Origin: Planctomycetia bacterium
GTDB lineage: Bacteria > Planctomycetota > Planctomycetia > Pirellulales > PNKZ01
DNA length: 45,639 bases
Direction: 5' to 3'
Assembly: GCA_021413845.1 (NCBI GenBank)
Contig: JAIOPP010000152.1
Location: 1-45,639, forward strand
The translations under genes were made by a program, and so were the position numbers. Positions 33,101 to 45,639 of this stretch are shown piece after piece. Position 1 is the first letter of the stretch. Each line of letters begins with the position of its first letter. The notes under the pieces were generated by a model. That model saw nothing but the letters and a program-made list of their open reading frames with translations, had not been told where the DNA came from and made no database searches.

Positions 33101-33264
33101 GTGCGACCCCTTCGGCCTCGGTTCCGAATGCGACGCCGAATGCGGCTCCGGCCGAAGACTACACCTCGCGATTGCTGAGGGCGAAGCGTAAAGTATGGAC
33201 CGAGCGCCGAGACGGCGATCCGCCTCCAAACTCGCCGCCGCAACCCGACGAACCGACACTCTAG
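30160..33264 (+). CDS. Large double-VWA membrane protein with GATase-like insert
   Basis: A 1034-aa protein. Two membrane helices lie at the start (YLWMAAALPLIWWF and IAFLIRGVVWMLLVAACAEM), followed by a first VWA-like domain with MIDAS variant D78-RSLS, and then a region that resembles class I glutamine amidotransferase or DUF4159-like folds (GRVLLIEDFQRRGRHERLVEAL ... MGCGFVMLGGSNSFGAGGW). A second, complete VWA domain starts at D448-SSGSMSG. Near the C-terminus is one more helix (LWPALVLAAVLLFVADVFI), then a basic Pro/Ala-rich cytoplasmic tail. This layout is a known planctomycete form related to BatA/BatB. The TTG at 30160 is preceded by AAGG; the next in-frame ATG is 17 codons in and would shorten the first helix. 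Confidence 0.88.
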   Translation: MDPSTFHLEFDRPVYLWMAAALPLIWWFGRSTLTSLGRVRGTIAFLIRGVVWMLLVAACAEMQWVRTDDRLTVIYLLDRSLSVPEGQRRAMIEYVNRAIAEQRGDQDSVGVIAFGREARVESPPLDRKLRLGETLEATVDPQYSNIAEAFSLAQAAFPEDAAQRIVVVTDGNANLGDVYAEARSAVDQGIGVDVVPITYRTGGDILVEKVSLPAIARRGEPFQVQVLLNNTASPDADAKAIGGSVELLRRHGDDVTVLSKEHVELAPGKRSLTIRQTLEDADFYVYEARFTPDDPQVDAQVLNNKSLNFTQVEGAGRVLLIEDFQRRGRHERLVEALRREKLEVVTMPTNRLFASPAELIGFDTVILADVARTSGDGADDVVNFSDEQIRMLQANVQEMGCGFVMLGGSNSFGAGGWANTPLEEMMPVDFQIKNVEVVPSGALMLVLDSSGSMSGEKLEMCKTAAVAAVKVLGAKDYAGVVSFDSEAHWIVPMHQFKSVGDVIRRMDRLSAGGGTNMRPGMEAGYEAIQGVPAAVKHVIVLTDGQTAGQDYEQLAANMRKQGITTSCVALGADSATTLLDGIARAGGGKFYLVNHPRTIPRIFMKEAMRIARPLIFEKKEGFAVQRESAGHEVLRGIDGPLPPLTGFVLTRTKRSPLVQTLITNPSFAAEGSGTIAGTWTYGLGRTAVWTTDCGKSWATQWATWPEFDRLLTGLVRWTMRPPTAGGRYAVHADAQDGQGRIVVTAVDEQGEYLNLLDPQGSVIGPDLKPRPIQLEQVAPGRYSAAFDTDEIGSYFVVVRPGAGRPTLRTGVNVSYSPELRDREPNLSLLTSLAALKPKGGGPGMLATALSNGLTTTAAPLGVDFFRHDLAKASGRRDLWPALVLAAVLLFVADVFIRRVAFESRWLWIGFVWLQARVLRRTAPAAAQPHMERLKRRKEEIARQVNERRATAAAAPSANEPRVDPVRNVDSAPANQGTLGNRATPSASVPNATPNAAPAEDYTSRLLRAKRKVWTERRDGDPPPNSPPQPDEPTL

Positions 33265-33293
33265 CCCGCCGCAGCCCACCAAGGTATTCGCGA

Positions 33294-34298
33294 ATGACGA
33301 TCGCCGACACGATTCAGGACCGAGCCCAAAGCTTCTTGCGCGACTATCGTGCGGTGCGTGAACAGTTGAAGCGCGTGATCGTCGGACACGATGAAGTCGT
33401 CGACGGCGTGTTGACATGCTTATGCGTCGGCGGGCATTGCCTGCTCGAAGGAGTGCCGGGGCTCGGCAAGACGCTGCTCGTGCGGACGTTGTCGCAAGCG
33501 TTGCGATTGCAGTTTTCGCGAATTCAATTCACGCCCGACTTGATGCCCGCCGACATTCTCGGCACGAATATGTTCGTCGAATCGGAAGACGGCCGACGGG
33601 CCTTCGAGTTTCGTCGCGGCCCGATCTTCACGCAGGTGCTCTTGGCCGATGAAATCAATCGGGCCACGCCGAAGACGCAATCGGCCCTGCTCGAAACGAT
33701 GCAAGAAGGTTCGGCGACGATCGGCGGCACGACCTTCCGCATGGAGCCGCCGTTCTTCGTATTGGCGACGCAGAACCCGATCGAGCAAGAAGGGACCTAT
33801 CCGCTTCCCGAAGCACAGCTCGACCGGTTTTTCTTCAAGGTGCTGGCCGGCTACCCGACGCGGGAAGAGCTCAACACGGTTCTCGATCGCACGACCCGTT
33901 CGGTACACGACGAAGCGGAACCGGTGATCGACGGCCCGCGCATTCTGGAGATGCAGCGGCTCGTGCGCGAAGTCGTGATCGCGCCGCATGTGCAAGACTA
34001 CGCCGTACGGTTGATCCTCGCGACGCACCCGCAAGGCCCGCACGCCGCCGAAGGGGCGAACAAATGGCTCCGGTTCGGGGCCGGCCCGCGCGGCGCTCAG
34101 GCCTTGGTGCTCGGCGCGAAAGTGAAGGCGCTCTTAAACGAGCGTTTCAACGTCAGCTACGACGATCTACGCAGCGTCGTGCTGCCCGCGCTGCGGCATC
34201 GTATCTTGCTCAACTTCGAAGCGCAGGCCGAGAACGTAGAGCCGGACGCGGTGTTGAAGGAACTCTTGGAGAAGGTGCCGCGGCAGAAGGAGGCGTGA
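33294..34298 (+). CDS. MoxR family AAA+ ATPase
   Basis: A 334-aa ATPase. Walker A is GVPGLGKT, Walker B is VLLADEINR, and the family sensor region NPIEQEGTYPLPEAQLDRFFFK is intact, as is the LLETMQEGSATIGG loop before it. MoxR proteins act as chaperones, often for metal insertion or membrane complex assembly, together with VWA proteins. The ATG at 33294 lies 29 bases after the stop of the double-VWA gene. DUF58, the usual third partner between MoxR and BatA-like genes in many bacteria, is absent here. The last three genes on this strand form one likely operon. Confidence 0.95.
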   Translation: MTIADTIQDRAQSFLRDYRAVREQLKRVIVGHDEVVDGVLTCLCVGGHCLLEGVPGLGKTLLVRTLSQALRLQFSRIQFTPDLMPADILGTNMFVESEDGRRAFEFRRGPIFTQVLLADEINRATPKTQSALLETMQEGSATIGGTTFRMEPPFFVLATQNPIEQEGTYPLPEAQLDRFFFKVLAGYPTREELNTVLDRTTRSVHDEAEPVIDGPRILEMQRLVREVVIAPHVQDYAVRLILATHPQGPHAAEGANKWLRFGAGPRGAQALVLGAKVKALLNERFNVSYDDLRSVVLPALRHRILLNFEAQAENVEPDAVLKELLEKVPRQKEA

Positions 34299-34304
34299 GA
34301 GGGA

Positions 34305-34336
34305 AGTGGTCAGGGGTCGGTGGTCAGTGGCCGGTG
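34305..34336. repeat. GGTCAGTGG-type tandem repeat
   Basis: Short tandem words: GTGGTCAGGGGTCGGTGGTCAGTGGCCGGTG-like, in which TGGTCAG occurs twice and GTCGGTGG and GGCCGGTG are variants. It begins seven bases after the MoxR stop and adjoins the hairpin repeat at 34363. It is one of several short dispersed intergenic words in the window. Confidence 0.65.
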
Positions 34337-34362
34337 AGAAATTTTCCGGCGAGCGTTCGGCT

Positions 34363-34412
34363 ACGGCACGCGGAGCGTGCCTGCAACGTTGTAGGCACGC
34401 TCCGCGTGCCGT
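34363..34412. repeat. Perfect 20-bp inverted repeat, interspersed hairpin
   Basis: The arm ACGGCACGCGGAGCGTGCCT at 34363-34382 is the exact reverse complement of 34393-34412, with a 10-base loop GCAACGTTGT that is itself nearly symmetric. All 20 base pairs match. The GGCACGCTCCGCGTGCC word is, from memory, very common between genes of planctomycetes. It lies between convergent genes and could serve as a bidirectional transcription stop or a mobile REP-like element. Confidence 0.85.
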
Positions 34413-34487
34413 GACCATTGGCGCAAAGAAGCTCTTAGCGAGCGCGCGTAGAGAGGAAACCGAGCCCCGGCGAAGTTGCGGGCTGCT

Positions 34488-35318
34488 CTACTCGCTTTGC
34501 GGTTCGTCTTCCGCCGGGCGGAGATAATTGCTCTCTAAGATGCGGGCGTTCTGGTTGCACGATTGGCGGCGGTCGACGGCGTGCCAAGAGCTGACCCCCT
34601 TGAGCTCCGGCATCAGCTCGACGAGTTGGTTGACCAACGTCTGCCCGAGGCGCTGGACCGAGACTTGGCCGGTACGCTCCATGATCGCTTGCACCGTCTT
34701 CATCACGCGGACCATGCGGGCCCGTTGCAAGACGGGAGGCGAGAGCTCGCAGTCGGGCTCGACGAGCAGATCGGCCACGGGAACTTCACACAGCTTTTGC
34801 CAGGCAAAGAGTTGCGCGAGCGTGAGGTCGGCGGTCGGTTCTTCTTGGCGACGTGCTTCTTCGACCGAGATTTCCAAGTGCTGCGAAGCACGCTTGATCG
34901 AGATCCCCTGTTGGCGACGAACCTCGCGCACGCGGTGCATCTCGGATCCGGCCGACTTCGACGACCCGACGGCGTGCGCCGAACCGCTCTGTGTTGAATT
35001 GTTCTGGGCCGAATTGCTCAGTGCAGGACCATCGACGGCCCGCGCTACGGCCGACGACAAGCCGGTGCTCATCGAGCGTTCCGACTCCGTATGCAGTTGA
35101 GCGACTTCCGAGAGTGGCGCATTCAATTCCTTGCGCTCTGCTCTCTTGTGATCCACGACCGAGTCGCTTGGCGACGGCGGCGGATTACCCGCTGGCTCGT
35201 CGTGCGAAGCGTGTTCGCGCGAGCTCTGTTCTCGCGACGCTCCGGCAAGCATGCCGGGTTGCAGCGCAAGAGAAGGAGTGCGAGTTAGCAAATTGAAATC
35301 GATAATGCTCATGGGCAA
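34488..35318 (-). CDS. Protein with degenerate HTH-like core
   Basis: A 276-aa protein. Residues 1-120 are Ser/Ala/Glu-rich and probably disordered. A core at about 128-195 (REVRRQQGISIKRASQHLEISVEEARRQEEPTADLTLAQLFAWQKLCEVPVADLLVE) has the pattern of a Cro/XRE helix-turn-helix followed by the helical end of that fold, as in regulators that open with MHRVREVRRQQGIS. The C-terminal 80 residues are helical with a cluster of Val, Gln and Leu. It is probably a DNA-binding regulator, but the target is unknown. The start is at the ATG at 35318, with an alternative at 35312. A 430-base upstream region holds no gene. Confidence 0.68.
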   Translation of the reverse strand: MPMSIIDFNLLTRTPSLALQPGMLAGASREQSSREHASHDEPAGNPPPSPSDSVVDHKRAERKELNAPLSEVAQLHTESERSMSTGLSSAVARAVDGPALSNSAQNNSTQSGSAHAVGSSKSAGSEMHRVREVRRQQGISIKRASQHLEISVEEARRQEEPTADLTLAQLFAWQKLCEVPVADLLVEPDCELSPPVLQRARMVRVMKTVQAIMERTGQVSVQRLGQTLVNQLVELMPELKGVSSWHAVDRRQSCNQNARILESNYLRPAEDEPQSE

Positions 35319-35750
35319 CTTGAAATGATCCGATGTGAGCGATCGCGGACGTCGTGACAGTAGACAGACACCTCGAACGAGCGCGCATTAAAAGACTGCG
35401 CACTGAGGAAGTGACTTGCCGCTCATCGCTTCGACCGAACTCCTCGCACTCGAATGACACTTGCCCTGTCACTCAAAAGAACGAACGTCGACTGAGCCGT
35501 AGGTGAGAATTCACCCGGTTGCCGACCCGAAAGATATGACGCCTCGGGCAGCACCCAAATAATAGCGCACTCCCCGTTTACAAACAAGAGAGAACGCCAC
35601 GAACTTCAAGGATCGCGTCGCCGACCCGTGCTTCGAGCGAAGCCGGATCGGAAACTCGGAATGCGACAAACTGACGCGGCCTACTCAGGACAATCGTGGA
35701 GCGGGAAACGGTCTCATGCCCATCTCAACCCGGCACGACATGCCCCGTGT
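35319..35750. other. Intergenic region without a gene
   Basis: About 430 bases between two minus-strand genes. I find no frame that looks coding, no clear terminator for the upstream gene and no RNA gene. It contains scattered A/T-rich stretches near 35560-35600 that could hold promoter elements for the downstream gene at 34488-35318. Confidence 0.5.
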
Positions 35751-36617
35751 TTACTCGCCCCAGGTGAAGGCCCGCAACCGCGACATTAGGTAACTCGGGC
35801 CGCGCACTTGGGCACCGGTCGGCGAATCGATCTTAGTATGTTCACCACCGGAGGCCGGCGTGCGGCGGCCGGCGTTTTCCGCACGGCGAGCCGTAGCGCC
35901 GCTCGGTCGGGCCTGTAAACCGCGACGGATCCCCGCGGCCAAGGTAGCTAGGCTCGGTGCCCGGCTCCGGCGGCTGCGGATGGCTACCATCGGCATGGCG
36001 AAGCCGGAGGTGCGTAAATGCGTGAGCAGCCCTTGCCGATCGCCCGACTGTTGCCAGCCGAGCAGCAAGCGCCGGGGAACGAGCAAGAGGTCGGGCAGCG
36101 GCGATTCGGCGGCTTTCGCCCCCGGCTTCGTCGCGCTCGATTTGGCCGGCAGACGTGGAATCGTCCCGACTCCGCCGGATGTTTCGTACATCCCCGCCAC
36201 GGCGACCGCGGACGTCAGGGAGCCCCAAACCTTGGCGAGCTCGTGCGGATCGAACTCGGCCGGGTCGCGGCAGACGAGCAGCGTTTCTCCTTGCGAGTAG
36301 CGCAGCGCGCTCCGCAGGGCTTCCTGCGCTCCGAGCTTCGTCGGGTGGACGAGCAACTGCACCTGAGGGAACTGGAGCGACAGTTCGTGAGCCGTGTCGA
36401 TCGTGCCGTCGGTCGAACCGTCGTCGACCATCACGACATCGAAGCGGGGCGTCAGTTCCGGCAGGATCTCCAAGAGTTCGGTAAGTAGGGTCGGTAGCGA
36501 CGACTCGACATTGTGCAGCGGCAGGACGACGGTTAGCGAGGGATTCAAAAGACGATTCCTAAGTGATTGCGAAACGTTTCCTGAGTGCTCCCGCATTTCC
36601 CGCGCGGTGGAGGCCAT
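35751..36617 (-). CDS. GT2-like glycosyltransferase protein with degenerate DxD
   Basis: A 288-aa protein. Residues about 25-140 match the start of a family 2 glycosyltransferase: LTVVLPLHNVESSLPTLLTELLEIL, DVVMVDDGSTDGTIDTA, HPTKLGAQEALRSALRYSQGETLLV. The position where such enzymes have the metal-binding DxD (usually LMDADLQDPP) reads LLVCRDPAEFDP, so the motif is damaged. The C-terminal half is short, basic and Ala/Arg-rich, without membrane helices or an acceptor-binding domain. It may be an inactive homologue with a scaffold role, or an enzyme that uses other ligands. The start was set at the ATG at 36617; an in-frame extension to 36782 looks like noise. Confidence 0.75.
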   Translation of the reverse strand: MASTAREMREHSGNVSQSLRNRLLNPSLTVVLPLHNVESSLPTLLTELLEILPELTPRFDVVMVDDGSTDGTIDTAHELSLQFPQVQLLVHPTKLGAQEALRSALRYSQGETLLVCRDPAEFDPHELAKVWGSLTSAVAVAGMYETSGGVGTIPRLPAKSSATKPGAKAAESPLPDLLLVPRRLLLGWQQSGDRQGLLTHLRTSGFAMPMVAIRSRRSRAPSLATLAAGIRRGLQARPSGATARRAENAGRRTPASGGEHTKIDSPTGAQVRGPSYLMSRLRAFTWGE

Positions 36618-36985
36618 GTCGATCGGCCATAGCTTCGCACGGGATTCGACCCAGGCGAGAAAGGCAAACCGAAGGGCCCGCGGAACCGCAACTCCATCGA
36701 CGGCGCCGCCCTGGAAGCGCGAAGCTTCCGCCTGATAGCATCGGCCGGACGCGGAACGGAACTCTAGTCTGCAAAACGACAAACGACCTCTGGCGACGAT
36801 AGCGATCAGGCCCGAAATGCCGAAGGCGCGCCCCAGGGAGGGCGTCGCGCCCTCTGCCGGTTGTAAGAGGCGCGAGCGGGCCGATCCTGCCGATCGTACG
36901 CTGCTGGTAACCTTTTGCGGCGGGGCGTATCCTTGAGAAAGGTGTTCCCTCGTTCTTTTCCAGCGTGCTGGGTCGGAGTCGTCTC
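36618..36985. other. Divergent intergenic region before hisI
   Basis: About 370 bases between the glycosyltransferase-like gene and hisI. It includes a GAGGGCG-tcg-CGCCCTC hairpin at 36838-36854 with a perfect seven-pair stem. No T run follows it, and I see no RNA gene or riboswitch that I can name. Promoters for both genes must lie here. Confidence 0.5.
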
Positions 36986-37444
36986 TTGTCGAAAGTACCC
37001 GCCGTTTTCCCCGACTTCTCCGCCGGCGACGGCCTGCTTCCGGCCGTGGCTCAAGACGAGGCGACCGGCGAGATCCTCATGCTCGCCTTCATGAACGCCG
37101 AGAGCTTCGCCGAAACGCTGGCGACCGGTCGGGCCGTGTATTACAGCCGGAGCCGACAACGCCTCTGGCGCAAAGGAGAAGAGAGCGGCCACTACCAGAC
37201 GGTGAGCCAGATTCTCACCGATTGCGACGGCGACGCCCTCGTGCTCAAGGTGCGGCAACACGGCCGAGCCGCCTGCCACACGGGCCGGGTAAGCTGCTTC
37301 TTTCGCGAGATCACTCCGGCCGGAGTGCGGATCATCGCCGAGCCGATTTTCGACCCGGCCGAGGTCTATGGAAACAAAACTCTCCCATCTCCAGGATCGA
37401 CCCCGACCCTTCTCCCGCCGGGGGCTTTGCACAAGAAGTCCTAG
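36986..37444 (+). CDS. hisI: Phosphoribosyl-AMP cyclohydrolase
   Basis: The third histidine-pathway enzyme, opening the ring of phosphoribosyl-AMP. The metal-site signature DCDGDALVLKVRQHGRAACHTGRVSCFF holds the three Cys and the Asp pattern of the family, preceded by LAFMNAESFAETLATGRAVYYSRSRQRLWRKGEESGH. The start is set at the TTG at 36986, with a GGAG sequence six bases before it; a GTG at 36965 is the alternative. The normal family end is near FDPAEVYGNK (about residue 130). The last 22 codons are not HisI: they read through the left half of an intergenic hairpin repeat and the first 22 bases of the inserted element, ending at a TAG at 37442 inside it. The old stop was probably lost to the insertion, or lies in the extra repeat. 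Confidence 0.93.
   Translation: MSKVPAVFPDFSAGDGLLPAVAQDEATGEILMLAFMNAESFAETLATGRAVYYSRSRQRLWRKGEESGHYQTVSQILTDCDGDALVLKVRQHGRAACHTGRVSCFFREITPAGVRIIAEPIFDPAEVYGNKTLPSPGSTPTLLPPGALHKKS
37407..37422. repeat. Left half of intergenic hairpin repeat split by the insertion
   Basis: The 16 bases CCCTTCTCCCGCCGGG end at 37422 where the inserted element begins. They match the left arm of the planctomycete hairpin repeat seen whole at 43254-43297. The matching right half, starting with CCCGCCGGGAGAAGG, lies at 42470 after the element. The last nine bases (CCCGCCGGG) are the target duplication. Confidence 0.85.
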
Positions 37445-37461
37445 ATTATAGCGACTTGTTG
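37429..37461. repeat. Left-end iterated binding motif of the element
   Basis: GCACAAGAAGTC at 37429-37440 faces GACTTGTTGTGC about 12 bases later, matching at 11 of 12 positions as an inverted pair. With the tip it is a cluster of the same word and is probably where the transposase binds. Confidence 0.6.
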
Positions 37462-38676
37462 TGCAGGTGAAGTTCCTGCCCAAAAAGTCGTGTCGATTCC
37501 GAATTCGTGCGTCTCTTGGATCAGCACGTAAATGTTGTGGCAGACGATTTTGCAGAGCACTTCGTTGACCATCGCAGTGTCCGTCTTGCTCCGCACGTGA
37601 TCGCGGAACTTTGCCTTGATCATGCTGAACGTCGATTCGACGTTGCTCCGCTTGTGATAGTGCGCTAGGAACTCACCACGACGGTATTGGAATTAGTGGT
37701 ACATCTTCTTCCAGAGTCCATCGCCCTTGCCGTTGTGAGTCCTGTTCTTGAACGGTATGAACGGTGTCGCGCCCGTGGCTTCGATTGCATCGTAGTTCTT
37801 GTAGCTGCCGTATGCCTTATCGCCGGACACTTCCGCGATCTTGAAGCTCTTCGCGGTGGCTTTCACGAGATCGGGCATTAGGGGTGCGTCTTGCGCCAGT
37901 TTGTCGCGAATCTCCACGGCCGTGACGATGTTCGTCTTCACTCCGCACATCAGGTGGACCTTGACCCATTCGTGCTGCTGTCGCACGGTGCCGTATTTAT
38001 GATCGAAACAGCGGATGAATCGCGAGGTTGAGAAACCCGACGAATCGGCAGCGAAGTCATGCTCGACTGACTTGAGTGGCAAACTGGTTTCCTCGATCAT
38101 CGCCTTTAAGATCGGCGTTAGGTCGGGATTCTCCAACGAATTGAAAATCGTGTTGAAGTGCGGCAGCTTCTCAATGAACCCCTTTTCGTGCGCGGCACTT
38201 AGGTCGCTCATGAAACGCCGACCGGAAACCGTGCTGAAGATTTTGAAGCACGCGGCGAACACCGCGTCATTTAGCGGCAGGCGCGGACGACCGACCTTCG
38301 ATCGCGCCGGCTCGACAATTCCAAGGCATAGGTCGCGCAGTAGGTCAAGGAACCTATCCTTCTCGTGGGTTTGCGCATGGTTGTATGCCGTCAAGTTTTG
38401 AGAGTAGATCTTGCGCTCTGCTTTCGGCGGAAGTGGGGCCGGCTCCTCCTTGTAGTCGAACAGCTCTCGTTGCATAAAGAACTCGACGGCGTAGATATGC
38501 TTGCATTTCCCGCCCGTCGTTTCGTGGTCGGAGCAGCTGCAATGCGGACTCGTGCCGCTCGGCGTAACCTTGTAGCGGCCATTCCCGGACTGACTTGGAA
38601 CAAAGAACGAATCTCCCTGGCGATCAATCCTGAAAGTCGCGGCGATCGCCATGCCGCTCTGCTTGCGTGCATCCAT
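37441..38676 (-). pseudogene. SWIM/DDE transposase interrupted by an in-frame stop
   Basis: A transposase of about 410 codons, if read through. The N-terminus has a SWIM zinc finger (CSCSDHETTGGKCKHIYAVEF: C-x-C...C-x-H), after which comes the DDE catalytic domain: DFAADSSGFSTSRF (first Asp), VSGDKAYGS (second Asp), and HYHKRSNVESTFSMIKAKF (catalytic Glu). A TAA at 37693-37695 interrupts the frame just after KKMYH; related proteins have an aromatic residue here. All sequence on both sides stays in one frame, and a single base change from a Tyr codon explains it. The stop comes before the catalytic Glu, so the protein as encoded would be inactive unless it is read through. The start is taken as the ATG at 38676 (MDARKQSG). 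The final TAG lies 18 bases inside the left tip. Confidence 0.88.
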
Positions 38677-38692
38677 GGACGGAACCATCCCG

Positions 38693-38720
38693 TTGTTTGG
38701 GCGGTATCGCGTGTTAGAAT
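38693..38720 (+). promoter_or_regulatory. Possible promoter for an RNA antisense to the transposase leader
   Basis: TTGTTT at 38693-38698 and TAGAAT at 38715-38720 are separated by 16 bases. A TGT precedes TAGAAT as an extended -10, which would offset the weak -35. It points away from the transposase gene, toward the terminator at 38767. Confidence 0.35.
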
Positions 38721-38726
38721 GCAATT

Positions 38727-38804
38727 GCTTAGGAGCATTCTGGCGCTAGCCGCCGGACTGGTCTTGCCCCGATGCGGCCTTGGCGGGCTGTATCGGGGTT
38801 TTTT
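38727..38804 (+). ncRNA. Candidate antisense small RNA of the transposase leader
   Basis: A short transcript of about 78 bases is proposed from the extended -10 at 38715 to the terminator at 38767-38804. No coding frame is seen. It would lie opposite the untranslated leader of the transposase mRNA, as RNA-OUT does in IS10, and could block transposase translation. All of this rests on promoter and terminator signals; the transcript itself is not shown. Confidence 0.35.
38767..38804 (+). terminator. Strong rho-independent terminator with no gene upstream
   Basis: CCCCGAT (38767-38773) pairs with ATCGGGG (38792-38798), and the stem can continue inward as GCGGCC against GGCTGT with two G-U pairs, to 13 pairs. 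Six T follow directly (38799-38804). It points along the plus strand although no plus-strand protein gene precedes it inside the element. Confidence 0.75.
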
Positions 38805-38833
38805 CGTTTGGCTTGCGTATTCTAATGACCTAA

Positions 38834-38893
38834 TGTTATTTGTCCACCCAAATAACAGGTCGCGTTGACATTTTATTTGGGTGGACGTAAAGT
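38834..38893 (+). promoter_or_regulatory. Promoter with nested operators for the RHH protein
   Basis: TTGACA (38865-38870) and TAAAGT (38888-38893) are 17 bases apart, a good promoter. A perfect 9-bp inverted repeat TGTTATTTG-N6-CAAATAACA lies at 38834-38857 just upstream. A perfect 14-bp inverted pair GTCCACCCAAATAA (38842-38855) / TTATTTGGGTGGAC (38873-38886) shares its left arm with it and runs into the spacer of the promoter. The -10 ends eight bases before the ATG at 38901, so the mRNA would have almost no leader. Autoregulation by the RHH protein is the simple reading. Confidence 0.7.
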
Positions 38894-38900
38894 GTCCGGC

Positions 38901-39083
38901 ATGAGTTCAAAAGAACCCAAGCCTAAACGTGGAAGACCGGCGACGGGAACGACGCCGAAGCGCTATTTCAGAATGGACGACGAGTCGTGGGCACTCGTCG
39001 AGAATGCCGCGCAAGCAGAAGGGAAGACAGTCTCCGACTTCATTCGCGAAGTGATACTGCGGGCTGCGAGACGGAAGGGCTAA
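38901..39083 (+). CDS. Ribbon-helix-helix DNA-binding protein with AT-hook-like arm
   Basis: A 60-aa protein. The first 15 residues (SSKEPKPKRGRPATG) are basic and include KRGRPATG, like an AT hook. Then PKRYFRMDDESWALVENAAQAEGKTVSDFIREVILRAARRK has the strand-helix-helix pattern of the Arc/MetJ/CopG family, whose dimers read inverted repeats. The start was chosen at the ATG at 38901; an upstream TTG reading at 38865 would lie inside the -35. The operator-like repeats in front of the gene suggest it controls its own promoter. It may also control the restriction-modification gene 237 bases downstream, like a controller protein, which is inference. Confidence 0.82.
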   Translation: MSSKEPKPKRGRPATGTTPKRYFRMDDESWALVENAAQAEGKTVSDFIREVILRAARRKG

Positions 39084-39319
39084 GGCCGTTCAGCTGGCAG
39101 GACGCGCGACCACTTGCCAGACCGCGGCGTGCGCGAGTCGGATATTAAGAAGCGACGAATTGACTTGGCACTGTTTCCATGGTTTCAATGACAATGAACG
39201 AATGCTAGCGGTTCGCCGAACTAATGCGCGGCAATCCGCTCTTCTATAGAAGTCGGTTTTTGATACAGTTCCGCACCTTTTCTCGCACTGCAACGATTGC
39301 ACTGACCTCGGCTTGATAA
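39084..39319. other. Gap between RHH and RM genes
   Basis: 236 bases with no credible gene. A weak promoter TTGACT (39160-39165) / TTCAAT (39184-39189), with an 18-base gap, may drive the large gene. No terminator is apparent after the RHH gene. Confidence 0.4.
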
Positions 39320-41980
39320 ATGGCCAAATCATCGGAAACACGAACCGAAGGCGTGGCTCGCGAACTTTTAGAGATTCGCGGGTGGAATCTTTCGCGCCCA
39401 CCAAAAGGGAACTTGCTCTGGAAAAACGAGTACCGAGATTACCCACATCTTCTGGAAGCACTGTCAGGCCGAGGCAAGAAGGGCCGAGGGGGCGACGGCT
39501 ACCCGGATTTCTTAGTCGTAACCGCTGACTCGAATCCGATGCCGCTTATAGTCGGCGAGGCAAAGGCTTCCGAGGATTCGATCGACACCGCCGTTCATGA
39601 GGCGTGCAACTTTTACGGCGAAGCCTTCACCGACCACGGAATGAGGGTGCTGGCTGCCGGCATCGCCGGGAACGACCATTCGAATATCGCCGTTCAGGTA
39701 AGCAAGCGATCCTTCCGAAAGTGGCGACCGATTGAGTATCGCGAGCATCCGATTCAGTGGTTGCCGACGCCGGAGGAGACGAACCGCCTATTAACAAACG
39801 ATGAACTGTATGATCTCCAGCCCCGCATTCCATCCGGCGAGGTCCTGGCAAGGCGAGCGGACGAGATCAATCGCATTCTTCGAGAGTGCAAGATCAAGGA
39901 CGAATACCGGCCTGCAGTAACCGGCGCATTCATGCTGGCTCTTTGGCAATCCAAGGGGCAGATTCGCATGCATCCCGAGCATATCCTTACGGATATCAAT
40001 AGCGCCTGCAAAAAGGCGTTCATTCGTTCCGGAAAGATCGAGCTAGCCGAAAGCATTTTGGTCCCGGAGGCCAATGAAAAGCTGGCCGTTAAGGCCCCTC
40101 GTATTTGCTACATCCTCCGACTGCTTAACGTTACGACGCTCACGGCAGAGCACGACTATCTCGGCCAGCTCTATGAAACGTTTTTCCGATTCACCGGCGG
40201 AAATACGATCGGGCAGTTCTTTACGCCGCGGCACGTTACTCGATTTGTCGTTGATCTATGCGAGGTAAATAAGAACGACGTCGTGGTCGATCCGACGTGC
40301 GGTACGGGTGGGTTCCTAATCGCCGCTCTCTATAAAATGATGGGCGATCGCCACCTTACCCATGATCAAATAAGCGACCTTGTTCGCGGGCATCTTGCCG
40401 GTTTTGAAAGCGAGCCGATCACTGCTGCGCTGTGCGTCGCAAACATGATTCTTCGTGGCGATGGCACGACCGGAATCTACAAGGGTGATTGCTTCAGTCA
40501 TCCCAGTTATCCGACCGGCAAAGCCAATGTCGTTGTGGGAAATCCGCCGTTTCCGCACAAGAAAACCGACGAACCTTCAGAGCGGTTCGTTGATCGAGCC
40601 CTAGAGGCGCTGGATGCCCGGGGAACGCTAGCGATGATCGTTCCCGAATCGCTCTTAGTAAAGCCATCGAAGCGGAAATGGCGGAAGAAGACGCTCGCGG
40701 GGAACTCGTTACGTGCGGTAATGACGCTTCCGGGCGAACTTTTTCAGCCGTACGCGGCCGCCACGACTGCAATTCTCATCTTAGAGAAAGGAGTCCCACA
40801 CAACGCGAAACGGCCGACCTTTTTCTGTCGGATAACCAATGACGGCTACCGCCTGCAAAAAAACGTTCGTCTAGAGCGTGCGGGTGAGCAGTTGTCGGAA
40901 GCCATGGACGCCTACCGAAAGAATAAGTCCATTGCGGGATTTTGCGTTTGGGGATCTGTGGACGGCACCGAGTGGTCTCCGGGAAATTATATCGAAGGCA
41001 TTTCGCAAACGCCGGAGATGATCCAATCGGAGGTTGACGTCGTAATCCGTAGTCAAGCAGCATTCCATGCAACATTTGCCCCGCAATTAAGCGCATTTAG
41101 AGCTTTGATCAGCAGCGGAGAAGTGGCACCTAAGTCGTATGCGGAACTAATCAAGAAGAAGAAGGCGAAAAAGACGAAGGAGTCAAACAAAAAGGCTGAT
41201 ACGCCCGCGCCGGCAGCTGGCACGATCGGTGAGATGTTTGACATCTACTACGGCCAAGGCGCGCTGGAAAGCAAGAGAAACTTGCTTCCCGGTGCGGTGC
41301 CGATCATCTCATCAGCAGGGTCCAATAACGGATGCTACGGATTTTTCGAATTCTCGCAGGTAGCCAACGCAATCGCCCCGTCCTTTGTTACCGTTCCGAA
41401 AACTGGAAGCATCGGCGAAGCGTTTGTTCAGGAGTGGCCGTGCGGGGTTACTTCGGACTGCTTGCTGTTAATGCCGAAAAATGGAACGGACCAGATTGAT
41501 TTGTATATCGCGGCAGCAATGGTTCGGCTGGAAAAATGGCGGTTTAATTACGGTAGAAAAATCACGCCGACTCGGGTATCAAAGATTGCCTTTCCGCGCA
41601 CCGCAGAATTGCGGGAGTGGGTGGCGACTAAATTAAGATCACTGCGGCCGATCGTCAGCGTAACTTTGCATGGCCTGAGCGGACTTGAGGATGCATCAGC
41701 ACGATTTAAAGGTCTCGCGGACGAATGGCGACGTGGGCGCGGGCATAAGTCAACCGTTGCAAAGCTCGTCGTTCATCCCGCGTATCAGCAAATTATCGGA
41801 ATGGGCGAGGCTGTCGTTCCTCTTCTTCTCAGGGAAATGGAACTTCGGCCGTCGCATTGGTCGTGGGCGCTGAGAGCGATTACCGGAACGGACCCTGTGC
41901 CGGAGTCTGCTCGCGGGAAGCTTGATCAAATGGCAACATCATGGGTTAACTGGGGCAAAGAACAGGGGTACATCTGGTGA
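39320..41980 (+). CDS. Single-chain restriction-modification enzyme with extra C-terminal helical domain
   Basis: An 886-aa protein of Type IIG layout. Residues about 1-150 form a nuclease domain: GDGYPDFLVV (P62-D63) and PLIVGEAK (E80, K82) are the PD-(D/E)xK active site, as in HsdR N-terminal domains. A helical region follows. The N6-adenine methylase has GQFFTPRHV (298-306), motif I DPTCGTGGF (324-332) and motif IV NPPF (408-411). A Lys-rich hinge (612-626) leads to a target-recognition domain at about 635-765 (GTIGEMFDIYYGQG ... ITPTRVSKIAFP), HsdS-like. Residues about 790-886 are a helical add-on (LADEWRRG ... HPAYQQIIGMGEAVVPLLLREMELRPSHWSWALRAITG) that I know as a stand-alone protein. 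It probably methylates and cuts DNA by itself. Its TGA overlaps the start of the next gene. Confidence 0.9.
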   Translation: MAKSSETRTEGVARELLEIRGWNLSRPPKGNLLWKNEYRDYPHLLEALSGRGKKGRGGDGYPDFLVVTADSNPMPLIVGEAKASEDSIDTAVHEACNFYGEAFTDHGMRVLAAGIAGNDHSNIAVQVSKRSFRKWRPIEYREHPIQWLPTPEETNRLLTNDELYDLQPRIPSGEVLARRADEINRILRECKIKDEYRPAVTGAFMLALWQSKGQIRMHPEHILTDINSACKKAFIRSGKIELAESILVPEANEKLAVKAPRICYILRLLNVTTLTAEHDYLGQLYETFFRFTGGNTIGQFFTPRHVTRFVVDLCEVNKNDVVVDPTCGTGGFLIAALYKMMGDRHLTHDQISDLVRGHLAGFESEPITAALCVANMILRGDGTTGIYKGDCFSHPSYPTGKANVVVGNPPFPHKKTDEPSERFVDRALEALDARGTLAMIVPESLLVKPSKRKWRKKTLAGNSLRAVMTLPGELFQPYAAATTAILILEKGVPHNAKRPTFFCRITNDGYRLQKNVRLERAGEQLSEAMDAYRKNKSIAGFCVWGSVDGTEWSPGNYIEGISQTPEMIQSEVDVVIRSQAAFHATFAPQLSAFRALISSGEVAPKSYAELIKKKKAKKTKESNKKADTPAPAAGTIGEMFDIYYGQGALESKRNLLPGAVPIISSAGSNNGCYGFFEFSQVANAIAPSFVTVPKTGSIGEAFVQEWPCGVTSDCLLLMPKNGTDQIDLYIAAAMVRLEKWRFNYGRKITPTRVSKIAFPRTAELREWVATKLRSLRPIVSVTLHGLSGLEDASARFKGLADEWRRGRGHKSTVAKLVVHPAYQQIIGMGEAVVPLLLREMELRPSHWSWALRAITGTDPVPESARGKLDQMATSWVNWGKEQGYIW

Positions 41981-42402
41981 GCTTGCCTGTAAGCGAGTTT
42001 CCAAATCTCAAGCCGAACGAATTCGAGCCGACGAGTCCGGAGAACGAATTCTACAACTGCATTGCCTGGGCCGCCGGAGTGCACAATGAATGGTGGGAGC
42101 CATCAGTGGATGGCGTCTGGCCTTCTGGCGTCCCGCTTGACCCCACAATCGAAAACCTTTCTCTCGTCTTCGCAGGGCTCGGTTACGAGTCCTGCGAATC
42201 AGCCGACCTGGAGTCCGGCTTTGAGAAGATCGCGTTTTACGGCACCCACAACGAATACGAGCATGCCGCTCGGCAGCTAGATGACGGTCGCTGGACCAGC
42301 AAAATGGGCGCTGGAATTGATATCCGTCACGTGAACCTTGACTGCATCGGCGGCGGCCTTTACGGGGCTGTCGTATCGATTATGCGACGGCCCAAGCGGT
42401 AG
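41977..42402 (+). CDS. Small Cys/His protein, DUF7689-like, possible papain-like fold
   Basis: A 141-aa protein whose GTG start overlaps the TGA of the preceding gene (GTGA). Conserved points of the family that I remember as DUF7689 are all present: FPNLKPNEFEPTSPENEFYNC, C28 in NCIAWAAG, a Trp-rich region, FEKIAFYG, then H96 in YEHAARQLDDGRWTSKMG and DIRH (H118). A Cys near the start, a His before a strand, and a SK-x-G motif followed by a late His is the order seen in papain-like toxin domains (NCHG...HSG...SKWG...H). That relation is an inference and could be coincidence. The preceding protein ends in a domain often found as a separate gene beside this family. The stop is 67 bases from the right end of the element. 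Confidence 0.75.
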   Translation: MSLPVSEFPNLKPNEFEPTSPENEFYNCIAWAAGVHNEWWEPSVDGVWPSGVPLDPTIENLSLVFAGLGYESCESADLESGFEKIAFYGTHNEYEHAARQLDDGRWTSKMGAGIDIRHVNLDCIGGGLYGAVVSIMRRPKR

Positions 42403-42433
42403 CCACTACCGACTCCTTTTTGTGCAGCCTCCC

Positions 42434-42469
42434 GACTTCTTGTGCAGGAGGGCTTTTATGTGCAAAGCT
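42434..42469. repeat. Right end of the element with iterated TTGTGCA words
   Basis: GACTTCTTGTGC (42434-42445) is the exact complement of the left-end 12-mer, and TGTGCAAAGCT (42459-42469) is the tip. A third TTTTTGTGCAGCC copy lies at about 42418-42427, just inside. Repeated words at both ends look like transposase sites. Confidence 0.65.
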
Positions 42470-42510
42470 CCCGCCGGGAGAAGGTGGCGGCGCAGCCGGC
42501 GGATGAGGGG
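42470..42510. repeat. Right half of the split intergenic hairpin repeat
   Basis: It begins with the target duplicate CCCGCCGGG (42470-42478), continues AGAAGGTGGCGGCGCAGCC and ends GGATGAGGGG. Joined to the left half at 37407-37422 it restores one copy of the planctomycete repeat, equal in form to the whole copy at 43254-43297. Confidence 0.85.
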
Positions 42511-42527
42511 CCATCGCAACCCCTTCC

Positions 42528-42565
42528 ACCACGAACTACGAACCAAGAACAAAGAACCACGAACT
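42528..42565. repeat. Direct repeat ACCACGAACT
   Basis: ACCACGAACT occurs at 42528-42537 and 42556-42565, with related CGAACC and AAGAAC words between them. It lies directly before the start of the next gene and looks like one more low-complexity intergenic repeat. Confidence 0.65.
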
Positions 42566-42570
42566 CAAAA

Positions 42571-43239
42571 ATGCCGCATCGCATTTCCCTAGTCGCCGCA
42601 CTACTCGTTCCGCTTTTATTCGTCGGCGCGGCCTCGGCAGAACTCCCGCTCGTTTTCGAAGACGACTTCGAGCAAGGCTCGGAGCAGCTTGCGAAGCGTT
42701 GGAAGCCGACCGACGCCGCGGCTTGGAAGCTCGTCGATGGGAAGTCGGGCAAGGCTTACAGCTTGTTTCAGCAGAGCAACTACAAGCCGCCGTTTCGTAG
42801 CCCGGTGAATATCTCGCTGGTCGACGACGTCGCCGTGACCGACTTCCGGCTCGAGGCCGATGTCTTATCGACGAAGGCCGACTACCCGCACCGGTCGATG
42901 ATCATGGTGTTCGGCTATCAAGATCCGGCGCATTTCTATTATGTCCATTTCGGAAAGAAGATGGACGACCATGCGAACCAGATCTTTATCGTCGATGGTG
43001 CGGCTCGCTTGAAAATCTCGACGAAGACGACCGACGGTACGAACTGGGACGACGCTTGGCATCATGTGAAGATCGAGCGCAATGCCGCTTCCGGCGACAT
43101 CAAAATCTTCTTCGACGACATGCAAGCCCCGGTCATGACGGCCGTGGACAAGAAGTTCACCTGGGGCCAAGTCGGCCTCGGCTCGTTCGACGACATCGGC
43201 GACTGGGACAACGTGAAGCTGTGGGGGACGAAGAAGTAA
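42571..43239 (+). CDS. Secreted concanavalin/LamG-like protein
   Basis: A 222-aa exported protein. Its leader is SLVAALLVPLLFVGAASA, and the mature part is a single beta-sandwich of the laminin-G or DUF1080-like kind: PLVFEDDFEQGSEQLAKRW, DFRLEADVLSTK, SMIMVFGYQDPAHFYYVHFG, WHHVKIERNAASGDIKIFFD and the closing GQVGLGSFDDIGDWDNVKLWG. The order of strands (EDDF at the start, YYVHF in the middle, VKIER, and FDDIGDWDNVKLW at the end) is that of sugar-binding or sugar-cleaving sandwich domains common in planctomycetes. No catalytic residue is certain. The start is the ATG at 42571; an upstream reading from 42442 runs through the repeat and is not real. Confidence 0.88.
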   Translation: MPHRISLVAALLVPLLFVGAASAELPLVFEDDFEQGSEQLAKRWKPTDAAAWKLVDGKSGKAYSLFQQSNYKPPFRSPVNISLVDDVAVTDFRLEADVLSTKADYPHRSMIMVFGYQDPAHFYYVHFGKKMDDHANQIFIVDGAARLKISTKTTDGTNWDDAWHHVKIERNAASGDIKIFFDDMQAPVMTAVDKKFTWGQVGLGSFDDIGDWDNVKLWGTKK

Positions 43240-43253
43240 GGGCCGTGCAGTAA

Positions 43254-43297
43254 CCCTTCTCCTGCCGGGAGAAGGTGCCCGAAGGGCGGATGAGGGG
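43254..43297. repeat. Whole copy of the CTTCTCC...GGAGAAGG hairpin repeat
   Basis: CCTTCTCC-TGCCG-GGAGAAGG (43255-43275) is an eight-pair stem, followed by GCCC-GAA-GGGC and then GGATGAGGGG. It stands between two plus-strand genes. It is the intact counterpart of the repeat into which the transposon was inserted. Confidence 0.85.
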
Positions 43298-43339
43298 CAG
43301 CCCTCGCAGAACCGAATCGTCGCCAGGGTCCGCAATCAA

Positions 43340-43762
43340 ATGACGAATACTCGAACGGCTCGACGAGTCGACAAAGGGCCGTTGTGGATCCTCGGTTGCA
43401 GCGGGGTGTTTTTCCTGCTGTTATTGTCGCCGTTCCTCGCAATGTCCGTCTTCGATAACTATCTGCGCATCTGGAGCATCTCGGTCAGCAACGGCACCGG
43501 CAAATCGCTTTCGATCATCCTCACGTTCGACGGTGTGCCCGATCGCGCGATCCGCATCGATGGTGTGAGAGCAGACGCGATCTTCGGAAGCTATCTGTAT
43601 TCGGAACGCCGCGATGCGACGCTTAGGTCGATTTGTGTGATCGAGGGTCAGCGAGAACGAACGACGACGCTATCGAAAAGCATCGATGTCGGGTGCGATC
43701 TACGGGTCGACATCGATCCCGACCTCAGCGTGCGCACTTCACTCGATCAAGACGCCCACTAG
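43340..43762 (+). CDS. Membrane-anchored protein of unknown function
   Basis: A 140-aa protein. One hydrophobic helix at about residues 14-37 (LWILGCSGVFFLLLLSPFLAM) follows a basic N-terminus and puts the rest outside the cytoplasm. The outer part is beta-rich: WSISVSNGTGKSLSIILTFDG, YLYSERRDATLRSICVIEG, and so on. Four Cys are present, one in the helix. No domain is recognised. It follows the LamG-like gene with a repeat between, so it probably has its own promoter, and it converges with the repeat-rich protein gene. Confidence 0.65.
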   Translation: MTNTRTARRVDKGPLWILGCSGVFFLLLLSPFLAMSVFDNYLRIWSISVSNGTGKSLSIILTFDGVPDRAIRIDGVRADAIFGSYLYSERRDATLRSICVIEGQRERTTTLSKSIDVGCDLRVDIDPDLSVRTSLDQDAH

Positions 43763-43780
43763 TAGCGGCGCCCCGCTCAC

Positions 43781-44959
43781 TTACTCGTTCTGCTTCGTCC
43801 AAACCAAGTAGCCCGGCTTTCCTTTGTTCGTTACGAAGTCGATTCCCTTGGCGAGTGTGGCGCTGGCGAGGCCGATGTGGCCGACTGCGAAGTCGCCTTT
43901 CGTGCCCGACGCCGCGATCAGCACCGAATTCCCTTCGCCGGTCTTGATCTTCGCGGCGACACCGGGGATCTTCGTCGCGCCGAAGTTCCAGGTGATCTGG
44001 TAGAGGTCGAACAGGTCCGATTCGTTGCCGCCGACCGGTTTGTACGGCTTGAGCGTCACGGTGCCCGCGTATTTTGCGCCGGCGTTCGGGGCCTGCGCTG
44101 CGACGATCTTAAACTCGCCGCTGAGCGAAGCAGGGCCTTCGAGCGTTTCGTTGCCGAGCGTTTCCTGGCCGTCTTTCGCGGCGTTGATCGGCACCCATTT
44201 GCCGGTTAGTTTCCCGCCGTCGATGTCATACACCGCCAGGGCCACGCTTCCTTCCGGCGCGAACGCGATCCATAGCTCGCCCGCCGCTCCGCCGGTTCCC
44301 TTCACGCCGATCCCCAGGAGCTCCGCCCCCTTGAGCTTCATGTCGAGATAGTGGAAGCCGTCTTTACCGGCCATGGTCGTGACGACCCCTCCGCCCCACC
44401 CCGGGACGCTGGAGTTCAACACGTCGAACTTGCCGAGCAATACGGTGCTCATCGCCGCTTCCCCTTCGGCTCGGGCCGCGGCCATCGCCCCCTTCAATGT
44501 CGCGATCTCTTCCGGCGTGAGCTTGAAGAGGTCGGGCATCAACACATAGAGGGCCGCCAGGAGTTGCTTCTTGTCGACCTTGCCGTCGACGAACAGCAAC
44601 CGCTTGCCGCCGAACGAGTCGCGAATGTCGTCGCCATCGAGATAGAGGAGCGACTTCGCCCCCGGCTTACGACGCAAATCGTAGTCGTCGACCATCAAGA
44701 TGCGATAGCCGCCGAACTCGTTGCGGACGTCGTCGTCGTCGAAGTAGAGGAGTGCCTTACCGCCCGGCGCGTCGCGGAGCACGTTATCGTCGATGAAGAG
44801 GAGGCGTTTGCCCCCCGGCTCGGAGCGGATGTCATCGCCGTCGATGAACAGCAACCGCTTGCCACCCGGCTCGGGCCGGATATCGGCGCCGTCGGCAAAT
44901 GCCGAAGAGGCGGTCGAGCAGAAGGCGAGAACGAGTAAAGTCGCGTAGTACGGTCGCAT
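43781..44959 (-). CDS. Secreted protein with six 17-residue tandem repeats
   Basis: A 392-aa exported protein. Its leader ends near residue 22 (STASSAFA). Residues 26-127 are six copies of a 17-residue unit with consensus D-[ILV]-R-x-x-[PF]-G-[GA]-[KY]-x-[LI]-L-x-x-D-[GD]-x; the Arg is at 28, 45, 62, 79, 96 and 113. A helical linker (KKQLLAALYVLMPDLFKLTPEEIATLK) and a beta-rich C-terminal domain of about 240 residues follow. The repeat units may make a small beta-solenoid or hairpin stack; Asp at the turns could bind calcium. I know of no named family for it. The start is the ATG at 44959; upstream codons to 45166 would add a basic region with no leader. Confidence 0.85.
   Translation of the reverse strand: MRPYYATLLVLAFCSTASSAFADGADIRPEPGGKRLLFIDGDDIRSEPGGKRLLFIDDNVLRDAPGGKALLYFDDDDVRNEFGGYRILMVDDYDLRRKPGAKSLLYLDGDDIRDSFGGKRLLFVDGKVDKKQLLAALYVLMPDLFKLTPEEIATLKGAMAAARAEGEAAMSTVLLGKFDVLNSSVPGWGGGVVTTMAGKDGFHYLDMKLKGAELLGIGVKGTGGAAGELWIAFAPEGSVALAVYDIDGGKLTGKWVPINAAKDGQETLGNETLEGPASLSGEFKIVAAQAPNAGAKYAGTVTLKPYKPVGGNESDLFDLYQITWNFGATKIPGVAAKIKTGEGNSVLIAASGTKGDFAVGHIGLASATLAKGIDFVTNKGKPGYLVWTKQNE
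44579..44887 (-). repeat. Six tandem 51-bp units encoding the 17-residue repeat
   Basis: The coding region of residues 25-127 consists of six diverged 51-base units. The units differ enough at the DNA level that slippage in assembly is unlikely, while the protein pattern stays clear. Confidence 0.8.
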
Positions 44960-45098
44960 CGCGGGAACTCCGAACCGTTTTAGGGAAGCCGGGTTCTCAT
45001 TATATCGCAACCCTCGCGGCATCCCAATCGCTTGAGATCGGGCGCGGCTGAATGATCGCCGCGCGTCTGCCGTTGCAGCCGGAAAGATCCGTGACTGC

Positions 45099-45353
45099 TT
45101 ACCGTGGGTGCGGTTTTGCTTGCAGGTCGTCCGTGCCGGGAAGTTGAGTTTCCGTAGTTTGAGCAAGCGTGTTCGGCAAGGCGTGATCGATCAGAAAGCG
45201 CTCGAGCTCTTCATGCGGGATGCGACGAAATCTGCTGCCTGGTACTCGATACCCTTTGAGTGCGCCGGAATCGAACAGGCGAATGATCGTGGTCTGGCTC
45301 AAGTTGCAAATATGCGCCGCTTCACCGGTCGTGTAGGCGGATTTGATTCGCAT
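45099..45353 (-). CDS. Excisionase-like HTH DNA-binding protein
   Basis: An 84-aa protein with a winged helix-turn-helix of the MerR/excisionase family: AYTTGEAAHICNLSQTTIIRLFDSGALKGYRVPGSRFRRIPHEELERFLIDHALP. The phrase GALKGYRVPGSRFRRIP is the usual recognition end of this group. A GAGGAA site precedes the ATG at 45353. The last 25 residues are Pro/Thr/Gln-rich and variable. In planctomycetes this domain often stands beside or is fused to response regulators; no such gene is visible before the window ends. A symmetric 19-bp site lies about 100 bases upstream. Confidence 0.85.
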   Translation of the reverse strand: MRIKSAYTTGEAAHICNLSQTTIIRLFDSGALKGYRVPGSRFRRIPHEELERFLIDHALPNTLAQTTETQLPGTDDLQAKPHPR

Positions 45354-45449
45354 GGTTCAGTTCCTCGGAAATCTTTCACTCGTAGGCCGGCGAACCGCAG
45401 ACGTCTCAACTGAAATAAGAAGTGAGTTGAGATTCGGTCTTTACCGATG

Positions 45450-45468
45450 TCGGAAGAAATTCTTCCGA
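45450..45468. promoter_or_regulatory. Symmetric operator-like palindrome
   Basis: TCGGAAGAA-A-TTCTTCCGA is a perfect nine-pair palindrome around one central base, in the space between two divergent genes (HTH protein and the gene at 45595). Its small centre and symmetry fit a site for a dimeric repressor more than a terminator. Confidence 0.5.
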
Positions 45469-45594
45469 AGGAACACCGGCATGTTCAGGTTCGTCCAGCT
45501 ATTCGATAGTAATTAGAGGGCGTTTCAAAACTTGGTTTGCTAGCTAAACAGGATCGTATTGGTTTGCGTATGGATGACTATCAGGAGGTCATCG

Positions 45595-45639
45595 ATGTCG
45601 CAAGCTTTACCGTTCGAAGCGACGTGCGTTTCGGCGGGT
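45595..45639 (+). CDS. Start of a gene cut by the window edge
   Basis: An ATG at 45595 stands six bases behind a perfect AGGAGG ribosome binding site, and the frame (MSQALPFEATCVSAG) stays open to the last base. Only 15 codons are visible, so the product cannot be named. An in-frame start elsewhere, such as the ATG at 45571 in another frame, lacks the ribosome binding site. Confidence 0.45.
   Translation, partial: MSQALPFEATCVSAG

Follow-up and report, generated by a model that had tools for sequence, protein, structure and literature searches.

The window, the whole stretch of 45,639 nucleotides of planctomycete DNA that was analysed, carries near its end a reverse-strand gene, P0001, which encodes an apparent export signal, a short tandem repeat, two predicted helices and a predicted all-beta C-terminal half. 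These features are listed below, the six repeat units as placed by repeat analysis and by the strands of the structural model.

43784-44959, minus strand: whole coding sequence of P0001, 392 aa, with ATG at 44959 and stop codon at 43781-43783; homologues are similar in length and layout
44894-44959, minus strand: probable Sec signal peptide, residues 1-22, a hydrophobic core followed by A-F-A, judged by eye
44834-44884, minus strand: repeat unit 1, residues 26-42
44783-44833, minus strand: repeat unit 2, residues 43-59
44732-44782, minus strand: repeat unit 3, residues 60-76, with V-L-R in place of D-[ILV]-R
44681-44731, minus strand: repeat unit 4, residues 77-93
44630-44680, minus strand: repeat unit 5, residues 94-110
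44579-44629, minus strand: repeat unit 6, residues 111-127
44540-44572, minus strand: conserved helix directly after unit 6, residues 130-140, a likely barrel plug (model and conservation)
44447-44515, minus strand: second helix, residues 149-171, joining the predicted flower to the C-terminal half (both models)
43784-44446, minus strand: predicted C-terminal all-beta region, residues 172-392 (full-length model, pLDDT blocks of about 56-88, and VIA-align rows)

The ORF program also lists a longer version of the same frame from a TTG at 45166, an unlikely start because the ATG at 44959 begins a sequence that looks by eye like a signal peptide. Under the usual rule for signal peptides and lipoboxes, no lipobox was seen by eye in the signal region, where F precedes Cys14. 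The protein had initially been taken to be secreted, which agrees with this apparent signal, and from the signal peptide as judged by eye we infer that P0001 is exported. Selection acts on the reading frame: in comparison with L017 and L018, with which P0001 shares 62% and 68% amino acid identity, synonymous differences amount to 0.68-0.87 per site and nonsynonymous differences to 0.17-0.30. The contrast is weaker against three proteins of the same genus, and small in their C-terminal half (synonymous 0.55-0.58 versus nonsynonymous 0.50-0.51).

Residues 26-127 consist of six contiguous units of 17 amino acids without a gap, and the 17 residues past unit 6 are the helix region and not a seventh unit. 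The initial annotation had described six units of period 17 marked by Arg at residues 28, 45, 62, 79, 96 and 113; these positions are right, with one Arg in each unit, and the tandem repeat is genuine. Compared with itself at lag 17, the stretch 26-127 has a mean BLOSUM62 score of 2.39, and in the shuffle test the best score over lags 5-34 was 0.23, with none of 5000 shuffles reaching 2.39; at the DNA level Tandem Repeats Finder reports a 51-bp period at 44719-44894. The motif D-[ILV]-R-x-x-[PF]-G-[GA] proposed at the same time fits five of the six units in the window and fails in unit 3, and across the 36 units of the window protein and five homologues it is found in strict form in 13. With the pattern relaxed to [ILV]-R at positions 2-3 of the unit, 34 of these 36 units fit, and Asp at unit position 15 is common to all of them; four of the six position-15 Asp residues of P0001 (D57, D74, D108 and D125) are invariant over eight proteins.

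Homologues were sought at several taxonomic depths. The whole protein found a match in 4 of 57 genomes, the window's own and three of the same genus, the latter at 36-38% identity, and when 396 genomes of the order were searched by alignment, the same four carriers came back; a genome-contig scan likewise gave three relatives, all of the same genus. A profile of the repeat domain, run on 397 genomes of the class, added two from another family (G527 and G561), and a search of 170 genomes of that family gave three carriers, these two and G1040, whose locus (L032) was excluded from the unit counts because it ends inside the gene and the sequence begins after the repeats. The profile of the C-terminal half gave six matches in 327 genomes of the class, including G538 and G495 from a third family. 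In viral contigs none of 14 stretches was confirmed as a relative, and a plasmid scan gave a single poor match (E 0.2). L019-L022 (four of nine matching genomes) and L024-L029 (six of nine), all at E 0.001-0.0071, were dropped, the ORFs inspected, at most two per locus, being without the repeat, and L023/L033 from genome G701 was kept from the repeat-profile matches.

The number of units does not vary among the proteins that show the period. All six period-17 proteins, that of the window and five homologues, have six units each, and in the 15 pairwise comparisons of these proteins identity averages 61% between units that hold the same position and 47% between units at other positions. When the array of the window protein is set against that of each homologue, the unrotated register is best in all five cases (0.70, 0.68, 0.55, 0.48 and 0.49, with next-best registers at 0.59, 0.61, 0.49, 0.46 and 0.46), by a clear margin for three homologues and a narrow one for L004 and L005 (0.48 versus 0.46 and 0.49 versus 0.46). 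The fixed number and single register indicate that the six-unit array was there before these lineages separated, and that it has neither gained nor lost units since then in the period-17 homologues. In comparison with the same-genus proteins, identity is higher in the repeat region (48-55%) than in the C-terminal half (28-30%). The comparison with L017 goes slightly the same way (70 versus 65%) and that with L018 the other way, the C-terminal half being at 76% and the repeat region at 68%.

Two further homologues, L048 and L049 (413 aa), have the C-terminal half and the helix as in P0001 and an N-terminal region in which the lag-17 signal is absent (-1.0). Their best lag is 16, which 20 and 3 out of 500 shuffles equal and which may be a trace of the repeat. 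Although neither protein has any Pfam match, hhalign aligns this region with the six-unit domain and its helix at 94.5% (E 7.5e-8, 118 columns), against 0.3% for the C-terminal profile used as a control; the region may still form six hairpins. Loss of the period in homologues had been named beforehand as grounds for giving up the repeat, and this applies in part: the period is lost in two of eight proteins, in which the helix and the C-terminal half are nevertheless retained. Conservation thus appears to lie with these two elements and the fold, more than with the visible repeat. Invariant in all eight proteins are Q132, A135 and Y138 of the helix and, just beyond it, P142, L144, F145 and L147.

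The domain was modelled with AlphaFold2 over residues 23-172 (150 aa) from 6 alignment rows, with a pLDDT of 91.3 and a pTM of 0.82; one of the five models was poor (38.0). In domain numbering the predicted strands lie at 3-6, 15-18, 21-23, 30-35, 38-40, 47-52, 55-57, 64-69, 72-74, 81-86, 89-91 and 98-103, that is, 12 short strands making two per unit of equal size, and the predicted helices at 108-118 and 127-149. A full-length model built from four alignment rows gives the repeats at low confidence (pLDDT below 50 over residues 1-147). A single solved structure stands out for the domain model, the Tubby C-terminal-like protein 1zxu (Arabidopsis At5g01750), which we take to be LURP-one. In a second look with VIA-align at 344 chains it reaches Z 6.8 with an rmsd of 5.9 over 109 aligned residues (range 9-121, including the helix), values which, with Z below 8, fall in the range where the tool warns of a common arrangement; the row after it has Z 2.2. 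Foldseek gave nothing usable for the domain model in PDB and BFVD, with no match at E below 1, and nothing at E 0.001 for the full model, and 1zxu is unmatched by the domain profile at the sequence level.

In the available part of Durairaj et al. (2023, PMC10584680), 1zxu is among the structures set beside the six-fold beta-flower, and Tubby-like proteins share Pfam clan CL0395 with the beta-flowers, from which they differ by longer strands and loops and by a circular permutation. The beta-flowers are described there as built of 8, 10 or 12 strands in four-, five- or six-fold symmetry. They have a semi-conserved [DNEQ]XXG motif where the hairpin of the repeat turns at its tip, in many cases a C-terminal hydrophobic helix and in some a lipoprotein signal, and in the type example the loops are long on one side and short on the other; that part of the paper gives no function for them (PMC10584680). 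The P0001 domain resembles the six-fold flowers in its 12 predicted strands, in the alternation of long loops and short turns, in the [DNEQ]XXG loop and in the helix that follows unit 6. The motif is present in the loop of five of the six window units and of 23 of the 36 units over six proteins, which are interrelated and not independent; shuffles within units give a mean of 2.4 and a maximum of 9 of 36. P0001 differs from the beta-flowers in its probable signal peptide without a lipobox and in the all-beta half fused to its C-terminus.

At the sequence level the comparison turns on the Pfam family PF21786 (Bflower_3), with a curated cut-off of 34 bits. P0001 itself has no match to it at any reported E, and all five homologues, searched with the domain alone, match below the cut-off at 16.5-20.1 bits (E 0.0006-0.0079); three of them at full length give E 0.019-0.045, and for the L005 domain an unrelated family slightly outscores Bflower_3. 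Since the same model also weakly matches a WD40-like protein of the window genome and, when E-values up to 10 are allowed, 6 of 14 control genomes, weak matches to it by themselves prove little. Among 246 genomes PF21786 matches in seven, and of these matches only the one in G701, from another lineage of the Planctomycetota, rises above the cut-off (38.7 bits). The G701 protein has a unit I-R-G-D-D-I-R-x-G-x-G-S in 17-aa steps, thus a G-D-D-I-R core and the same period as the P0001 domain. Our own repeat profile detects it at E 6.9e-5, BLASTP aligns it with P0001 over 68 residues without a gap (four units, 28%, 32.3 bits), and hhalign gives 78% at E 1.8e-5 over 51 columns; the alignment score is equalled by none of 2000 residue shuffles and, among 2000 period-preserving column permutations, by 7. 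The tie to a Bflower_3 protein above the cut-off thus runs through this one protein. Its frame (L033 1414-1701, minus strand; 96 aa) holds some four units of 17 aa together with a C-terminal stretch that is hydrophobic, and its product is perhaps a half-flower or an oligomer.

Because of the Bflower_3 matches and the alignment with the G701 protein we count the domain among the six-fold beta-flowers, the homologues scoring below the formal Pfam cut-off (best 20.1 versus 34 bits) and the window protein going unmatched; it is most likely a divergent branch of them, probably secreted, with ring closure and function being more conjectural. The initial annotation knew no family with such a unit, a statement that finds no support here, since the unit resembles that of a described fold, five of six proteins match PF21786 below its cut-off and the G701 protein aligns without gaps. 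Three other matches, none of them covering much more than a single unit, were set aside as chance on repetitive sequence: NCBIfam TraY (E 0.0018 with the whole protein and 2.2e-6 with a fragment; 19 residues, below its curated cut-off), PHROG 36214 (E 1.3e-5, 18 residues) and Pfam Pedibin (10 residues, under its curated cut-off). A separate open frame of 124 aa with near-identical short repeats (L034 1420-1791, minus strand), which has a weak Bflower_3 match (E 1.4e-4), may be non-coding repeat DNA.

The C-terminal half has no Pfam match in P0001, and among the C-terminal halves of six members two have one weak match each (E 0.021 and 0.064), none above chance; its profile finds nothing among PDB sequences at E 1. 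Its likeness to lipocalin-like eight-stranded beta-barrels comes from the structural list, not from PDB or Pfam sequence: VIA-align returns many barrel chains, with best Z values of 11.7 (8ah9, a de novo barrel), 10.9 (6ohh) and 10.6 (1jmx, quinohemoprotein amine dehydrogenase). At the moderate confidence of the model, residues 172-392 are probably two lipocalin-like barrels, and the aligned ranges alone suggest that one barrel (about 170-235 and 345-391) encloses the second (about 238-340).

The reading that best accounts for these results, to which we give a probability of roughly 85%, is that the six units are the petals of a divergent six-fold beta-flower in an exported protein that ends in a pair of lipocalin-like barrels. 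Each unit would be a hairpin that starts with a short strand near D-I-R, passes through a loop of roughly six residues (x-E-P-G-G-K) and continues as a longer strand (R-L-L-F-I-D), which would bend sharply into the following unit. The twelve strands would pair and close into a shallow barrel whose channel the helix after unit 6 would fill, an arrangement suggested by the match to 1zxu and by what has been published on the fold. The second helix would connect the exported flower to the two C-terminal barrels. Six units in one register followed by a conserved helix suit a closed ring.

A single-layer open beta-sheet of Gly-rich repeats, like the Sas-4/CPAP G-box or a sheet of the MORN kind, is the alternative that fares best, with a small probability. 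The best PDB sequence matches of the domain profile, weak as they are, are Sas-4 chains (4mpz, E 0.5; 4by2, E 0.74), E-values which, being near 1, are at chance level, and the absence of these chains from the rows listed by VIA-align for the domain model proves nothing. Some flowers themselves carry an annotation as MORN repeat variants, as stated in the available part of PMC10584680; the fixed six units, the conserved helix and the 1zxu match nevertheless fit a closed barrel. A calcium-binding repeat of RTX or dockerin type, with a metal in each D-G-D-D turn, would fit the unvarying Asp at position 15 and the four such residues invariant in eight proteins, and we hold it to be very improbable. 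The repeats of RTX proteins have a period of 9, not 17, the Pfam and NCBIfam matches reported include no RTX- or dockerin-type profile, and the G701 Bflower_3 protein has Arg at the aligned place, so that Asp there is dispensable for the fold. A metal-binding rim on the flower is possible all the same and compatible with the beta-flower reading. The first suggestion for this repeat, a solenoid or adhesive stalk, open-ended and with stacked units forming a rod that would hold the C-terminal half off the cell, suits short, Gly- and Asp-rich tandem units in a probably exported protein, but is likewise very improbable, because such a stalk could vary its unit number, and what is seen is six units in six of six proteins, an unrotated register best in five of five, a model of 12 strands and then a helix, that helix kept in eight of eight proteins including two without the 17-aa period, and a Tubby-like barrel as the lone outstanding structural match.

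As to what such an exported beta-flower might do, we offer two proposals. A tentative and rather doubtful one is that P0001 acts as a binding protein outside the cytoplasm. Its flower would be a rigid, non-extensible head that docks by its long-loop face (Arg and Lys) or its Asp rim on an anionic or metal-bridged component of the envelope, with the C-terminal barrels holding a small hydrophobic ligand. Because the G701 protein has Arg where P0001 has Asp, the position-15 Asp may be a trait of this branch, marking a metal or polar-ligand rim. The other proposal, of slight probability, is an exported Tubby-type binding device whose helix would be a movable plug, whose Asp rim would set this plug by taking up a divalent ion, and whose barrels would in response load or release a lipid-like ligand; if true, it would be the first function for a beta-flower, and one outside the cytoplasm.

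In the literature searched PMC10584680 alone was found for PF21786, and among the matches listed, in a limited collection of papers, there was no earlier report of the P0001 family. The family would represent an unusually regular and probably exported version of the beta-flower. Its members range from six similar 17-aa units to proteins in which the period is gone, and offer a test bed for the origin of a symmetric barrel by duplication and the later loss of the repeat. If the reading is true, the Pfam Bflower_3 model misses true relatives.

P0001 is 62-68% identical to proteins from another order (L017 and L018) and 34-36% identical to those of its own genus (L003-L005), and carriers of the family are scattered among the Planctomycetota. 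Horizontal transfer is the simpler and probable reading of this identity pattern and scatter; an old duplication with paralogues and losses is an alternative history, and a less simple one. The same-genus loci have several neighbours in common with each other and none with the locus in the window: an all-against-all BLASTP (E 1e-5, ORFs of at least 80 aa) of window positions 33000-45639 against L043, L044 and L011-L013 found P0001 and overlapping frames to be the only shared items. With no shared neighbours, gene context gives no function.

Nine neighbouring ORFs were scanned with Pfam. Near P0001 are an N-6 DNA methylase whose type I specificity domain scores below threshold (39320-41977, plus strand) and a small HTH_17 protein (45099-45353, minus strand), surroundings that may be a mobile or defence-related stretch. 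A 265-aa ORF (42442-43236, plus strand) has by eye a secreted, concanavalin-like look of the LamG or DUF1080 type and has no Pfam match at E 0.01. The three same-genus copies at L011-L013 share a convergent neighbour (L011 11155-12285, L012 10694-11794 and L013 11153-12280, all minus strand; 40-46% identity), which in L013 has no Pfam match and which was not found in the window's genome by a search made without a positive control. L011 and L013 have in common, in addition, an upstream protein of 1232 aa that by eye is metH-like.
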